This document shows positions 11,631-22,691 of a stretch of DNA of 35,357 nucleotides, piece by piece. The DNA is taken from the NCBI GenBank assembly GCA_018699395.1, contig JABIQN010000013.1, forward strand, positions 1-35,357. Reading direction: 5' to 3'. Numbering within the stretch: position 1 is the first letter of the stretch; every line of letters begins with the position of its first letter. A program made the translations under genes and the position numbers. Source of the DNA: Gammaproteobacteria bacterium (GTDB lineage: Bacteria; Pseudomonadota; Gammaproteobacteria; Steroidobacterales; Woeseiaceae). Under the pieces are notes generated by a model that did not search any database, was not told the origin of the DNA, and saw only the letters and a list, made by a program, of their open reading frames with translations.

Positions 11631-12579
11631 ATGTGCTGGAGATTTTGCTGGGCAGCAATCGTTTGGTGCCGCTACCGATACCCACCAACAATCCCCCGGC
11701 GAGAAAACCAAAAAGCCCATTAAATCCTATTGGCGCGAGTGCAGCAATGATGCCACCGGCAGTGTCAAGCCCGCGGGCAAGCTCCACAACATGTTGTAAT
11801 ACCTCGGCAACGGGTGGTATACCGTGCACAAGGATACCGCCGCCCACCAGGAACATCGCGACTGTACCGACAAATGACAAGGCCCTCATGAGCTTCGGCG
11901 CGAAGCAAAATATCCACTCACCGAGCCAATGCTGAAATCGAGTCCATCGGGAATCGCCTTGCTTGTTGAGAAGATGCATGCCGATGTCATCAAGCTTAAC
12001 AATGGCTGCAACTAGACCGTAAACCCCTATCGTTATCAGCGCTGCAATGATGGACAATACCGCGATGCGTGTAATGAGATCCGCATCTTGTACCGTACCA
12101 AGGACGATAACAATAATCTCGGCCGATAGAATTGTGTCGGTACGTATCGCGCCTCGAATACGTTTTTTCTCGAAGGCGACCGTATCCACATTTTCATCAC
12201 TGACAGCCTGCGGGCACTCCTCACGCTCATCTTCTGATGCTGGATGCGGTGGGTGATGAGCAACTTTTTCGAAACCTTCGTAGCATAGGAACGCGCCTCC
12301 AAGCATGAGTAACGGTGTAATAATCCATGGCATGAAGGCGCTTAGTGTCAAGGCTATAGGGACCATGATTAGCTTATTGAAGGCCGAGCCTTTGAATACT
12401 GCCCATACAACGGGCAACTCACGTTCCGCACGAACACCAGTCACTTGCTCTGCATTGAGCGCCAGATCGTCACCGAGGACGCCGGCCGTTTTTTTCGCTG
12501 CAACTTTGGTTAGAAGGGACACATCATCCAGCAGTGTCGCTATATCATCGAGCAGCGCTAAGAGACTGGATCCAGCCAA
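11629..12579 (-). CDS. DUF808 (YedI-like) inner-membrane protein
   Basis: 316 residues, matching the DUF808/YedI family of unknown role. It begins [20 protein letters not shown], the family's typical N-terminus, then has [18 protein letters not shown] and [12 protein letters not shown]. Hydrophobic spans are near residues 70-100, 147-200, 235-260 and 275-305, with a charged cytosolic loop [14 protein letters not shown] in between. The start is TTG 12579 with GAGGAAGG four bases upstream in the right place, so I prefer it to later starts. It is a single-gene unit ending in the terminator shared with hppA. The membrane location is clear. The function is not. Confidence 0.9.
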
Positions 12580-17783: not shown

Positions 17784-18488
17784 CTAGCCGCATTTGCTGT
17801 CGCCGCACGACAGGCAAGTCTGGCAGCCATCCATCATAATCACAGCAGCGGTATTACATTTACTGCAAAGTAGTGCGCCTTCAGGATACGAGCTATCCGC
17901 AAACGCATCTTGCTGCTTTTTAGACTCCTCAAACTCCACGCGTTTCTCGGCGATCAGTTGTTGCTGGCCTGCATCCAATTCTGGCGAAGCCAGCATACCA
18001 ATCATAATCAGATGTTTTTCAACAACGTGACCGAGTTCAGCAATAATTGATGGCATGAATTTGCCGCCCGGCTGCCAATAGCCGCCACGCGGATCGAATA
18101 CAGCCTTCAGCTCCTCCACCAGGAATGTCACGTCACCACCTTTACGAAATACCGCTGAAATAATTCGGGTCAGCGCCACTATCCATTGATAGTGATCAAG
18201 GTTCTTGGAATTGATGAAGACCTCGAACGGTCGACGTTTCTCGTTTTCCGTACCTTCATTAAGAATGATGTCATTAATCGTCACGTACATCGCATGGTCA
18301 GACACCGGCGTCTTCACTTTGTAGGTGGAGCCGATAAGCATTTCAGGACGCTCAAGCTTTTCGTGCATGCGAATCACTTCAGCACGATCACCACCACCTT
18401 CGCGAGGGAAGTCTTTCTTCGTTTCTTTCTTTTCGGCTTCTGGCTGATTTACCGCATAGCCCACAATTTTCTTATCTACTTTGATCAT
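17784..18488 (-). CDS. nrdJb: B12-dependent ribonucleotide reductase, small split subunit NrdJb
   Basis: Second part of a split class II reductase like NrdJa/NrdJb of Pseudomonas aeruginosa, where NrdJb is needed to work with NrdJa. The start is ATG 18488 (MIKVDKKIVGYAV), giving 234 residues. A TTG three bases earlier is possible. The central part has RRPFEVFINSKNLDHYQWIVALTRIISAVFRKGGDV, a TSCPD-like region (FEVF... and the later GGKFMPSIIAELGHVVEKH). The end is cysteine-rich: CSKCN, then CQTCLSCGDSKCG. These cysteines may relay reducing equivalents to the active site or bind zinc. The gene starts 14 bp after nrdJa. Confidence 0.93.
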   Translation of the reverse strand: MIKVDKKIVGYAVNQPEAEKKETKKDFPREGGGDRAEVIRMHEKLERPEMLIGSTYKVKTPVSDHAMYVTINDIILNEGTENEKRRPFEVFINSKNLDHYQWIVALTRIISAVFRKGGDVTFLVEELKAVFDPRGGYWQPGGKFMPSIIAELGHVVEKHLIMIGMLASPELDAGQQQLIAEKRVEFEESKKQQDAFADSSYPEGALLCSKCNTAAVIMMDGCQTCLSCGDSKCG

Positions 18489-18502
18489 CAATTACTTACC
18501 AT

Positions 18503-20659
18503 TCAAAACTTACCGTAATAACCTTCTTTCAAGGCATCAAATAAATTAGCAGCCGTATGCACTTCACCATCGTATTCAAGCTCTTCGTCGCCCTTAAGGT
18601 CGACCGTTGAGCCGTCATCAAGCGTAAACGTGTACTCCGTATTCTTAAGATCTTTCTCTTTCACAAGAACGCCCTGGAACGCTTCCGGATTAAATCGGAA
18701 TGTTGTGCAGCCCTTCAAGCCTTGCTGATACGCATATAAATAGATGTCCTTGAAATCATCGTAGTTGTAATCGGTCGGTACATTCGCTGTCTTGGAAATC
18801 GAAGAATCGATCCATTTTTGTGCTGCCGCCTGAATATCGACATGCTGTTTTGGCGATACACCATCAGTTGTGATGAAATATTCCGGTAGATTGCCAGGAC
18901 CTTCGTCATCGCCCATCCCGCCCGGCATTGCCTGAGCGTTAATTGTCTCACGGTAAGCGAGCAATTCGAATGAAAAGACATCAACTTTTTCCTTGGTCTT
19001 TTTGCCCTGACGAATCACGTTGCGAAAATAGTGATGCGCGAAGCTTGGCTCAATACCATTACTGGCATTATTCGCCAGCGATAGAGAGATCGTACCCGTC
19101 GGCGCAATCGAACTATGATGTGTAAAGCGTGCGCCTGTTTCGGCAAGTTTTTCAACCAGCTCTGGCGCCTCGGCAGCCACCCGCTGCATGTAACGACTGT
19201 AGCGCGCATGTAATATGCGTCCTGGTACTTTGTCGCCAGCCTGGTAACCATCATCGCGCATCTCAGGACGCTTACATAGCATTTCATCGGTCACCTCAAA
19301 GTTCTCGTTCATTATCGGTGCCGGACCTTTTTCTCTGGCCAGTTCGAGAGCTTCCTCCCAACCGGCCATCGCCAACTGACGCGAAACCTCTTCCGTGAAC
19401 TCAACGGCCGCCGGCTCGCCGTATTTCATGCGCATCATTGTGATCGATGAACCAAGACCTAAAAAGCCCATACCATGGCGCCGTTTGCGCTCAATTTCAC
19501 TGCGTTGCTGAGGCAACGGTAACCCATTAATTTCAACAACATTATCGAGCATTCGTGTAAAGACCTTTACTACCTTACGGAAGCTGTCCCAATCGAACGC
19601 AGCTTCCGCGGTAAACGGCTTACTGACAAAGCGCGTTAGATTCACCGAGCCCAACAAGCAGGAACCATACGGTGGTAATGGCTGCTCACCACACGGATTG
19701 GTGGCACGAATATTCTCGCAGAACCAGTTGTTGTTCATTTCATTAACTTTATCGATGAGCACAAAGCCAGGCTCCGCGAAATCGTAAGTCAATGCCATGA
19801 TGATGTCCCAGACTCGGCGAGCCGGCAGTACTTTGTAAATTTTGCATGCCGCCAAGCCTTCACTGCTCGTTACATAATTGCCAGCCTCAGGCCATTCTCG
19901 CCATACAAACTGTGATTCATCAGAAATATCGAGCCCATCAATTTCAACTTCTTTCGGTGTAACCGGAAACGCGAGCTTCCATTCATCTTCGTTGATGACC
20001 GCCTGCATGAACTCGTCGGTTATGAGTAAAGACAGATTAAACTGCCGCAAACGACCATCTTCGCGCTTGGCGCGAATGAAATCCATGACATCTGGATGAC
20101 CGACGTCGAATGTGCCCATTTGCGCACCACGGCGACCACCGGCCGACGACACGGTAAAACACATCTTGTCGTAGATATCCATGAATGACAGAGGACCCGA
20201 TGTGTACGCACCGGCCCCTGTCACATAGGCCCCTTTCGGGCGCAATGTAGAGAACTCATAGCCGATTCCACAACCGGCCTTTAAAGTTAGCCCCGCCTCA
20301 TGAACCTTATTGAGAATATTGTCCATCGAATCACCAACGGTGCCGGACACCGTACAGTTGATCGTAGAAGTTGCTGGCTTGTGCTCGCGAGCGCCCGCAT
20401 TGGAAATAATGCGGCCAGCCGGTATTGCGCCAGAGCGAAGCGCCCAGACGAACTCTTTAAAATAGTGTTCGCGCTTTGACTCGGTCTCTACGTCAGCCAG
20501 CGCCGCAGCAACTCGCTTATAAGTGTCATCAATATTCTCATCGATCTTCGAGCCATCTTTGGCTGTCAGGCGATACTTCACATCCCATATATCCAAGGAT
20601 GCGGGTTGAAATTGAATGTCGGTAACCGTGTGCGTATCCAAATTCACAGCTGACTTCAT
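18503..20659 (-). CDS. nrdJa: B12-dependent (class II) ribonucleotide reductase, catalytic subunit NrdJa
   Basis: Reduces ribonucleotides to deoxyribonucleotides using adenosylcobalamin, with or without oxygen. The start is ATG 20659 with AGAGGA four to five bases upstream, giving 718 residues. A 14-residue longer frame from 20701 is less likely. The N-terminal cysteine of the active pair is in TSTINCTVSGTV (Cys102). The radical site is ATNPCGEQPLPPYGSC (Asn321, Cys323, Glu325). HHSSIAPTGTISL is also seen. The C-terminal region YQQGLKGCTTFRFNP precedes a short domain. No ATP-cone is visible at the N-terminus. A sigma-70-like promoter and two NrdR-box-like palindromes lie upstream. Confidence 0.97.
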   Translation of the reverse strand: MKSAVNLDTHTVTDIQFQPASLDIWDVKYRLTAKDGSKIDENIDDTYKRVAAALADVETESKREHYFKEFVWALRSGAIPAGRIISNAGAREHKPATSTINCTVSGTVGDSMDNILNKVHEAGLTLKAGCGIGYEFSTLRPKGAYVTGAGAYTSGPLSFMDIYDKMCFTVSSAGGRRGAQMGTFDVGHPDVMDFIRAKREDGRLRQFNLSLLITDEFMQAVINEDEWKLAFPVTPKEVEIDGLDISDESQFVWREWPEAGNYVTSSEGLAACKIYKVLPARRVWDIIMALTYDFAEPGFVLIDKVNEMNNNWFCENIRATNPCGEQPLPPYGSCLLGSVNLTRFVSKPFTAEAAFDWDSFRKVVKVFTRMLDNVVEINGLPLPQQRSEIERKRRHGMGFLGLGSSITMMRMKYGEPAAVEFTEEVSRQLAMAGWEEALELAREKGPAPIMNENFEVTDEMLCKRPEMRDDGYQAGDKVPGRILHARYSRYMQRVAAEAPELVEKLAETGARFTHHSSIAPTGTISLSLANNASNGIEPSFAHHYFRNVIRQGKKTKEKVDVFSFELLAYRETINAQAMPGGMGDDEGPGNLPEYFITTDGVSPKQHVDIQAAAQKWIDSSISKTANVPTDYNYDDFKDIYLYAYQQGLKGCTTFRFNPEAFQGVLVKEKDLKNTEYTFTLDDGSTVDLKGDEELEYDGEVHTAANLFDALKEGYYGKF

Positions 20660-20670
20660 CTGTCCTCTTA

Positions 20671-20679
20671 CCCCCCCCC
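20671..20679. repeat. Nine-base C/G homopolymer just upstream of the nrdJa ribosome site
   Basis: A run of nine C on the plus strand (nine G in the nrdJ leader) lies a few bases upstream of the AGAGGA ribosome site. Slippage here would change leader length and perhaps the folding around the ribosome site, not the protein. Confidence 0.85.
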
Positions 20680-20735
20680 TTTCGGAGACCCCTAAATACA
20701 TTAATAACTAGCTTTTTTTTAACAAAATAACCCCG

Positions 20736-20778
20736 CTCGCCGACGGCCAGAAAACGTGCGGCGAGAGCCGTAAACGGC
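20736..20778 (-). other. Paired stem-loops in the nrdJa leader
   Basis: CTCGCCG (20736-20742) pairs with CGGCGAG (20759-20765), loop 16 nt. A small GCCG-TAAA-CGGC hairpin (20767-20778) sits next to it. No T-run follows. They lie in the predicted 160-nt 5' leader between the promoter and the start codon. No cobalamin riboswitch core was recognised. Confidence 0.6.
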
Positions 20779-20798
20779 CTCTTCCCTCTTTAGAGTAG

Positions 20799-20814
20799 AC
20801 ACAAGATGTTGTGT
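20799..20814. promoter_or_regulatory. NrdR-box-like operator of nrdJ, proximal
   Basis: ACACAAGATGTTGTGT is a perfect inverted repeat in its outer arms and fits 14 of 16 positions of the published NrdR consensus as I remember it. It sits about +9 to +24 from the predicted nrdJ start of transcription, where a bound repressor would block transcription. Confidence 0.85.
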
Positions 20815-20827
20815 CTGAACGCAGACA

Positions 20828-20856
20828 AGATTATGCCCGAATGGGACTTCTGTCAA
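20828..20856 (-). promoter_or_regulatory. nrdJ promoter
   Basis: Minus strand: perfect TTGACA (20851-20856). The -10 is either CATAAT after 15 bp (20830-20835) or TAATCT after 17 bp (20828-20833). Transcription would start near 20822, leaving a leader of about 160 nt. Confidence 0.65.
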
Positions 20857-20977
20857 GCATTTTACGTATTTAATTGTTAGTGCCTTTTTTATAAAAAATC
20901 AATGACTTACGATAATATGGAGATTAAGTTCTTTAAAAAAAAGGTAAAAAAAACAGCACTTTCATTGAATTTTAACG

Positions 20978-20993
20978 TCACTAGATATAGTGG
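20978..20993. promoter_or_regulatory. Second NrdR-box-like palindrome, distal
   Basis: TCACTAGATATAGTGG fits about 13 of 16 positions of the NrdR consensus. Its centre is 179 bp from the proximal box, close to 17 helical turns, whereas known NrdR boxes are usually about three turns apart. Function is unproven. Confidence 0.6.
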
Positions 20994-21112
20994 CAATGTT
21001 CAGGATCAAATTTTAGCACCCATATCGCGCAAATGATTGCATTTTTCATAATATTACCCCCTTGAAATACATTGCAGAGCCCCGAAATCTGCGTTTAGTA
21101 TCGTAATATTTT

Positions 21113-21129
21113 TAGGAGAGCATCTCCTA
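21113..21129. repeat. Operator-like palindrome
   Basis: TAGGAGA (21113-21119), three bases, TCTCCTA (21123-21129), perfect arms. It lies about 90 bp upstream of the candidate degQ-like gene promoter and could be a binding site for an unknown regulator. Confidence 0.6.
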
Positions 21130-21217
21130 CGTCTGCACAGCTTCAGGCCCGGCAGATCGCCACCAAGGTCACATAAAAAGAGCAAAAAAATATATCTGAT
21201 CGCAATAAATAAGCGCG

Positions 21218-21246
21218 TTCAGTAATTTTTTATTTAAGCCTATAAT
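21218..21246 (+). promoter_or_regulatory. Candidate promoter of the degQ-like protease
   Basis: TTCAGT (21218-21223), exactly 17 bp, and TATAAT (21241-21246). The start of transcription would be near 21253, giving a leader of about 77 nt. I did not find a sigma-E consensus. Confidence 0.55.
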
Positions 21247-21329
21247 TTTATTTAGCCCGTCCATTCATGATTAATTCAGCTGTCTGACTCTAATCTGGAC
21301 ATGATCCACAGCATTTATAGAGATTGAAT

Positions 21330-22691
21330 ATGACATCCAAAATACGATTTTTTCTTCTCGCATTGCTTAGTGCGTTGGCCTACACATCACTTGCCGCGGC
21401 GGCCCTGCCGCAAGGTGTCAAGGGTCAGCCAGTAATCAGTCTCGCCCCATTAGTTGAGGAAGCCTCACCTGCAGTCGTTAATATTCGCGTCAGCCAAACC
21501 GTGACACGCCGTAATTCGTTTGAGAATGACGCTTTTCGGCGTTTCTTCGGGCTTCCTGATGGTGGTGGCAGTGGCAGTGGCGGTGTACAGGAAGTTGCCA
21601 GCGCCGGTTCCGGTGTAATAGTCAATGCCGAACGAGGATATATCCTGACGAATCATCATGTTGTCGGCGACGCGGATGCCATTCAGATCTCGTTGATGGA
21701 TGGCACCGTCCATGATGCTGAGATCGTCGGCTCCGATCCGGCAACGGATATTGCTGTTATCAAGGTCGATGCGGATGGCCTAACCGAAATGGCCATCGGC
21801 GACTCCACAGGAGCCAGAGTGGGTGATTTCGTCATTGCGATCGGTAATCCGTTCGGTCTCGGTCATACAGTGACCTCCGGCATTATTAGTGCGCTCGGAC
21901 GCTCGGGCATTAGCAGAGACGGCTACGAGGATTTCATCCAGACCGATGCATCGATTAATCCCGGTAACTCCGGTGGTGCGCTGGTTAATATGAGCGGCGA
22001 ATTGATCGGCATTAATTCAGCTATCATCAGTCGATCGGGCGGTAATGTCGGAATCGGATTCGCGGTGCCGACGGAAATCGCTAGTTCGATAATGAGGCAA
22101 ATTCTGGACTTCGGTGAAATCAGGCGCGGACTTCTGGGCGTCAATATTCAGACGATTGATGCTGAAGATGCAAAAGCATTGGGCAATGATATCGATAGTG
22201 GTGCTCTGATCACCGGCATACAGGCCGATTCCGCGGCGGAGCACGCCGGACTGCAAGTCGGTGACATCATCATCGATGTCAATGATAAGAAGGTCAATGG
22301 TGCACCTCAACTCAGAAACCATATCGGTCTACTAAGATCCGGCGAGCAAATCGAAATCAGATACCTGCGCGATAATGAATCGTATTCAACCAAGGCGGAA
22401 CTCGGTCGGAAGCAGAGTCAGGTCATTTTGGGCGAAGAGATTCATCCTGGACTGGCGGGCTCCAGCTTCTCTCTAGCTTCAACGTCAAGCGGTAACGGCA
22501 TCGAAATTGACGAAGTTCAGGAAGGCACTCCAGCCGCACAACGAGGTCTTCGTACTGGCGACTTGATTACGCATGTCAACCGAGCGTCGGTTAAAAACCT
22601 GGGCGACCTGCGAGAAATCGCTTCTCGCTATGATATTTTATTCCTGAATATCCGTCGTGGCGATAGAGCGCTGATGTTTCAAATTCGCTAG
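21330..22691 (+). CDS. Periplasmic serine protease, DegQ/DegP type (HtrA family)
   Basis: Periplasmic quality-control protease and chaperone. The start is ATG 21330; TTG 21324 is possible but weaker. A signal peptide (TSKIRFFLLALLSALAYTSLAAAA) precedes the mature part, giving 453 residues. The catalytic triad is His110 in TNHHVVG, Asp140 in DPATDIAVI and Ser214 in NPGNSGGALVN. A short LA-type loop, FENDAFRRFFGLPDGGG, sits between about residues 64 and 80. Two PDZ domains follow, at about residues 255-345 (GVNIQTIDAEDAK..., SAAEHAGLQVGDIIIDVND) and 360-450 (GTPAAQRGLRTGDLITHVN). DegQ and DegP cannot be told apart by eye. It stands alone. Confidence 0.93.
   Translation: MTSKIRFFLLALLSALAYTSLAAAALPQGVKGQPVISLAPLVEEASPAVVNIRVSQTVTRRNSFENDAFRRFFGLPDGGGSGSGGVQEVASAGSGVIVNAERGYILTNHHVVGDADAIQISLMDGTVHDAEIVGSDPATDIAVIKVDADGLTEMAIGDSTGARVGDFVIAIGNPFGLGHTVTSGIISALGRSGISRDGYEDFIQTDASINPGNSGGALVNMSGELIGINSAIISRSGGNVGIGFAVPTEIASSIMRQILDFGEIRRGLLGVNIQTIDAEDAKALGNDIDSGALITGIQADSAAEHAGLQVGDIIIDVNDKKVNGAPQLRNHIGLLRSGEQIEIRYLRDNESYSTKAELGRKQSQVILGEEIHPGLAGSSFSLASTSSGNGIEIDEVQEGTPAAQRGLRTGDLITHVNRASVKNLGDLREIASRYDILFLNIRRGDRALMFQIR

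Follow-up and report, generated by a model that had tools for sequence, protein, structure and literature searches.

Organization of the nrdJ upstream region

The 35,357-nucleotide window analyzed here (contig JABIQN010000013.1, the whole stretch of DNA under study) encodes on its minus strand an adenosylcobalamin-dependent class II ribonucleotide reductase (RNR), nrdJ (18503-20701), identified by a profile search (NrdJ_Z TIGR02504, 577 bits, cut-off 400). Downstream of nrdJ, an ORF on the same strand (17784-18491) matches the C-terminal part of a B12-dependent RNR model (NF006417, positions 592-759 of 759), albeit with 48.6 bits and thus below the cut-off of 961, while a DegQ/DegP-like protease gene (21324-22691, plus strand) is encoded divergently, with about 600 bp between it and nrdJ. 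The genome, about 1.5 Mb in 97 contigs, also encodes NrdR (TIGR00244, 202 bits, over cut-off, cut at a contig edge), IHF alpha (contig C20 of the genome, 20944-21228) and IHF beta (C20, 9134-9409). By record titles, the nearest named relatives of its NrdJ are mostly Woeseiaceae or unclassified gammaproteobacterial metagenome genomes.

Reading toward nrdJ, the intergenic region contains a distal NrdR box (box 2, 20993-20978, TCACTAGATATAGTGG), a match to the IHF consensus (20909-20897), a -35 element TTGACA (20856-20851, minus strand), a -10 element TAATCT (20833-20828, minus strand), a proximal NrdR box (box 1, 20814-20799, ACACAAGATGTTGTGT), the leader and nrdJ. The first-pass annotation had correctly placed both boxes, 179 bp apart, as well as the TTGACA. 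The TAATCT lies at a 17-bp spacer from the -35, whereas the better-looking CATAAT would leave only 15 bp. The start of transcription is predicted near 20821, and box 1 falls just downstream of it. A half-NrdR-box-like ATCTTGT (20823-20838) overlaps the -10 about 24 bp from box 1 and is kept in many genus members, but this spacing is not a whole number of helical turns.

Box 1 is a perfect match to the likely NrdR consensus and sits inside a 20-bp near-palindrome. By contrast, box 2 matches 12 of 14 consensus positions and by sequence alone is not beyond chance: a degenerate motif with up to 3 mismatches gave 9 hits in the window against 8.3 expected. At 11 of 14 or better the window holds three sites, box 1 (14), box 2 (12) and a 16-mer at 11784-11799 (11) that lies inside an ORF and is probably a chance match. 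With 163 bp between the boxes, the pair is not a classical tandem operator with boxes 15-16 bp (or 24-27 bp) apart, and no 31/32-bp partner of score 10 or more was found beside either box in the window's own promoter.

We also asked whether a riboswitch or structured leader could explain the region. An Rfam search at gathering thresholds gave only a tRNA elsewhere in the window, and a permissive scan of 20600-21400 gave only two implausible sub-threshold hits. The nrdJ leader downstream of box 1 (20700-20814, minus strand) has conserved stems in the genus, with G-C, A-U and G-U exchanges in several pairs, but it folds only mildly better than shuffles (z = -1.26).

Conservation of the NrdR box pair

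We examined the conservation of the pair. In 31 aligned promoters of the genus (30 relatives and the window) both boxes are kept, 179 bp apart in 29 and 178 bp apart in two, although most of the interval has diverged and conservation falls away just outside box 2. It is this conservation at a fixed distance that makes box 2 credible. The conserved columns between the boxes are the promoter, a T-rich element beside box 2 and TAA-NNNN-YTG-W-T, the reverse complement of the IHF consensus WATCARNNNNTTR. The T-rich element (20943-20973, minus strand) consists of TTTCANNAAAGTG followed by a T run and lies within the interval between box 2 and the IHF consensus; its role is unknown.

To determine if the arrangement extends beyond the genus, we collected 256 upstream regions, leaving out a set of NrdJ matches that lacked the N-terminus, and removed six that lie upstream of other RNR-like genes. 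Of the remaining 250 regions, 155 have a long pair (140-200 bp), 17 a classical pair (29-33 bp), 59 one box, 13 none and 6 another arrangement. The 155 include duplicates (148 distinct intervals) and at least one wrong assignment, Methylomonas koyamae, which has a classical 31-bp pair but was scored as 172. By family label, 52 of the 89 gammaproteobacterial families whose nrdJ upstream DNA was fetched have a long pair, while 37 show none at our threshold, so nrdJ can be regulated otherwise; 8 of these 37 have a classical pair. Named examples with long pairs are Povalibacter uvarum (177), a Thiogranum MAG (179), Candidatus Rariloculus versatilis (177) and Sedimenticola selenatireducens (170), whereas Methylomonas and Methylovulum examples have 31 or 32. 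An apparent absence of spacings at 169-174 did not survive the larger sample. Two upstream regions (L129 and L236) carry three NrdR-like boxes, 145 or 143 bp and 167 bp apart, as if two loops were possible. The arrangement is thus not peculiar to this genome but common at gammaproteobacterial nrdJ.

We next searched for long pairs without anchoring on nrdJ. A whole-genome pattern hit 37 of 370 genomes of the class, with 0 for the reversed pattern, and all 30 fetched loci lie directly upstream of nrdJ; six of the remaining seven coincide with nrdJ upstream regions already in our collection. As the pattern covers spacings of 148-178 only, and misses even the window's own 179, 37 of 370 is a lower bound. 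For the same reason, its absence from 150 genomes drawn from the phylum (0 hits; 110 outside the class and 40 inside) is only weak evidence on occurrence outside the class. In G037, G052 and about twenty other genomes, and at loci L261, L269, L270 and L283, the NrdJ matches are split at about residue 338, and in a few at about 144, inside one long open frame with about 1 kb extra, indicative of probable inteins at two sites of NrdJ.

A central IHF-like site with helically phased arms

The first-pass annotation had not noted the IHF consensus between the boxes. In the window the site (20897-20909, plus strand, AATCAATGACTTA; on the nrdJ sense strand TAA-NNNN-TTGATT) is an exact match to WATCARNNNNTTR, one of six in the window, with TTTTTTATAAAAAA alongside, and it conforms to the published consensus TAAnnnnTTGATW (PMC10380432). 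Its bend centre, which probably lies 6 bp from the consensus centre, is at about 20897, while the midpoint of the boxes is 20896. The exact midpoint depends on this offset, but the phasing of the arms described below does not.

Between families the box spacing varies (145-193 bp), yet the site remains near the middle. In the 148 distinct intervals, the bend centre of the best IHF-like site is at the midpoint (mostly -1 to +1) where the spacing is 155-159 or 173-182, and usually 4-6 bp to one side where it is 143-148, 164-170 or 186-193, as expected if one arm gains or loses one turn. Using 71 clusters of dissimilar promoters, 23 were set aside for ties or low scores and 48 had a unique best site, of which 40 were central and in one orientation, against 55 of 1326 in shuffles, and 8 were not central. 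With one promoter per family, chosen for having a long pair, 44 of 52 families have an IHF-like site of score 11 or more within 6.5 bp of the midpoint and in one orientation, while 8 lack it; shuffles that keep local composition gave a mean of 3.2 and at most 8 in 300 runs. A midpoint alignment of 31 clusters made without any IHF motif returned TAA....TG.TTTT, sharper than when aligned on either box.

Notably, each arm changes in whole helical turns (about 67.5, 78, 88 and 98 bp). The observed lengths are 76.5-80.5, 86.5-91.5 and 97.5 from box 2 to IHF (arm A), and 67.5-69.5, 77.5-79.5, 86.5-91.5 and 98.5-101.5 from IHF to box 1 (arm B). Phase concentration at 10.5 bp is R = 0.76 for arm A and R = 0.82 for arm B (n = 44), although arm B phasing could partly reflect phasing of IHF to RNA polymerase. 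The box spacing alone is only moderately phased (R = 0.42 in 52 families). Thus, the sharper phasing is that of each box to the central site, rather than simply the roughly 17 turns between the boxes noted in the first-pass annotation.

Importantly, promoters with the classical 31/32-bp pair have no phased IHF site of score 12 or more (0 of 17), against 44 of 71 long-pair clusters. Among single-box promoters, 8 of 55 have a phased IHF-like site. In 6 of these 8 (two are identical sequences) the best distal 16-mer, with a score of 10 of 14, falls at a phased distance, and in 2 it does not.

We then inspected the proteins. An nrdR gene was found in 26 of 26 genomes tried, and 25 NrdR proteins (15 from long-pair and 10 from classical-pair genomes) were aligned. 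We saw no length difference between the two domains, so nothing suggests a special NrdR. Of 30 genomes with a long nrdJ pair, 6 had an NrdA match at E <= 1e-100; upstream of nrdA, 4 of these 6 show a box with a weaker partner (at least 10 of 14) 30-32 bp away and 2 do not. NrdR therefore does not appear to use only long pairs in these genomes, and the difference seems to be in the DNA. IHF alpha was over the cut-off in 32 of 41 genus genomes and in 34 of 35 genomes outside the genus (one of which has only a single box), but since IHF is present in most of these genomes its presence says little. A conserved TAG seen in HU-like hits was, in the four of five loci where the protein sequence was obtained, just the ordinary stop of an HU gene.

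Discussion

The first-pass annotation offered two readings, an unusual NrdR pair that could need DNA looping or a distal box serving something else in the region. Our results support the first: the pair is conserved, nrdR is present in the genome, and the boxes are helically phased, found beside nrdJ and separated by a predicted bend site midway. We consider it likely that the two NrdR boxes are one operator split across a DNA hairpin, although binding by NrdR or IHF, loop formation, the start of transcription and the direction of regulation are inferred from sequence. NrdR loaded with ATP and dATP is a tetramer with two box-binding sites about 80 A apart, which at classical sites kinks each box about 90 degrees and turns the DNA through 180 degrees (PMC9110341). 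It needs two boxes for strong binding, as one intact box lowers affinity 530-1000-fold, and prefers a whole number of turns between them (PMC12051234). With boxes about 180 bp apart, a bend is needed to bring both to one tetramer. IHF, which bends DNA sharply at this consensus, would supply it at the midpoint, and phased arms would present both boxes on the right face. The promoter lies in the arm between IHF and box 1, and a TTGACA-like hexamer starts 37-42 bp before box 1 in 58 of 71 clusters, so box 1 covers the region just after the predicted start. A closed loop would block initiation or escape and repress nrdJ when dATP is plentiful.

Other readings appear unlikely. The boxes might loop together through NrdR around an apex that is merely intrinsically bent or bound by HU, since the centre is AT-rich with A/T tracts, the majority base at one consensus position is T rather than A on the nrdJ sense strand, and HU plays this part in the gal loop (PMC4693257). 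However, the conserved columns spell the IHF consensus in one orientation, which shuffles that keep local composition do not reproduce. It is about equally improbable that IHF activates nrdJ by bending DNA toward RNA polymerase, with box 2 letting NrdR or another factor modulate this without an NrdR-bridged loop. IHF indeed sits upstream of the promoter in a fixed orientation, and NrdR is reported to have positive effects in P. aeruginosa (topA; nrdJ lower anaerobically in the mutant; PMC4409342), but this model explains neither why box 2 is helically phased to IHF nor why the bend stays near the midpoint as the spacing changes, and classical-pair promoters lack the site. Least likely, box 2 serves the divergent degQ-like gene or is a chance match. 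Its sequence alone and its location between divergent genes would permit this, yet its fixed, phased distance to box 1 in many families, the loss of conservation just outside it in the genus and the location of all 30 fetched whole-genome long pairs beside nrdJ argue otherwise.

A more far-reaching possibility, which we regard as only slightly more likely than not, is that IHF is an obligatory co-repressor with NrdR at nrdJ in much of the Gammaproteobacteria. In this view, an old, IHF-built hairpin replaces the short DNA turn that NrdR makes at classical sites, so that one unchanged NrdR uses two geometries (short pair at nrdA, long hairpin at nrdJ) and class II RNR expression responds jointly to dATP/ATP and to IHF level or DNA supercoiling. 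NrdR is regarded as a short-range repressor acting on boxes three or four helical turns apart. If the loop model is right, the same protein also works over about 14-18 turns, which ties the nucleotide sensor to nucleoid architecture and would explain nrdJ promoters that appear to have a single NrdR box. The promoters also provide a natural series with arms of about 6.5, 7.5, 8.5 and 9.5 turns. Within the open-access literature searched, which excludes subscription papers such as Rodionov and Gelfand 2005, we found no paper describing NrdR looping, IHF with NrdR or long-spaced NrdR boxes. Two earlier surveys would probably miss this arrangement, as one searched spacers of at most 50 nt (PMC12051234) and the other used a profile spanning two boxes and their linker (PMC9110341).

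The classical tandem NrdR boxes of S. coelicolor and E. coli (PMC9110341, PMC12176259) share with the nrdJ operator the 16-bp palindromic box, the repressor, the placement of boxes on one helical face and the promoter-proximal position. However, those pairs are 15-16 bp apart (31-32 between starts) and the NrdR tetramer itself makes the turn with two kinks, whereas here 145-193 bp separate the box starts, with an IHF site in the middle. In Streptococcus, NrdR boxes with 25-26 bp spacers likewise depend on whole helical turns and on two boxes for strong binding (PMC12051234), but with one extra turn only and no architectural protein. The P. aeruginosa nrdJ promoter also has two NrdR boxes at a class II RNR gene, and mutation of its box 2 mimics the nrdR mutant, while its box 1 overlaps the -10 (PMC4409342). 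The proposed mechanism resembles the GalR-HU repressosome of the E. coli gal operon (PMC4693257), in which two distant operators flank a DNA-bending protein at the apex, the promoters lie inside the loop and helical phase is important, but the gal system relies on an unrelated repressor of the LacI family, HU instead of IHF, a 113-bp loop and galactose rather than dATP/ATP as the signal.
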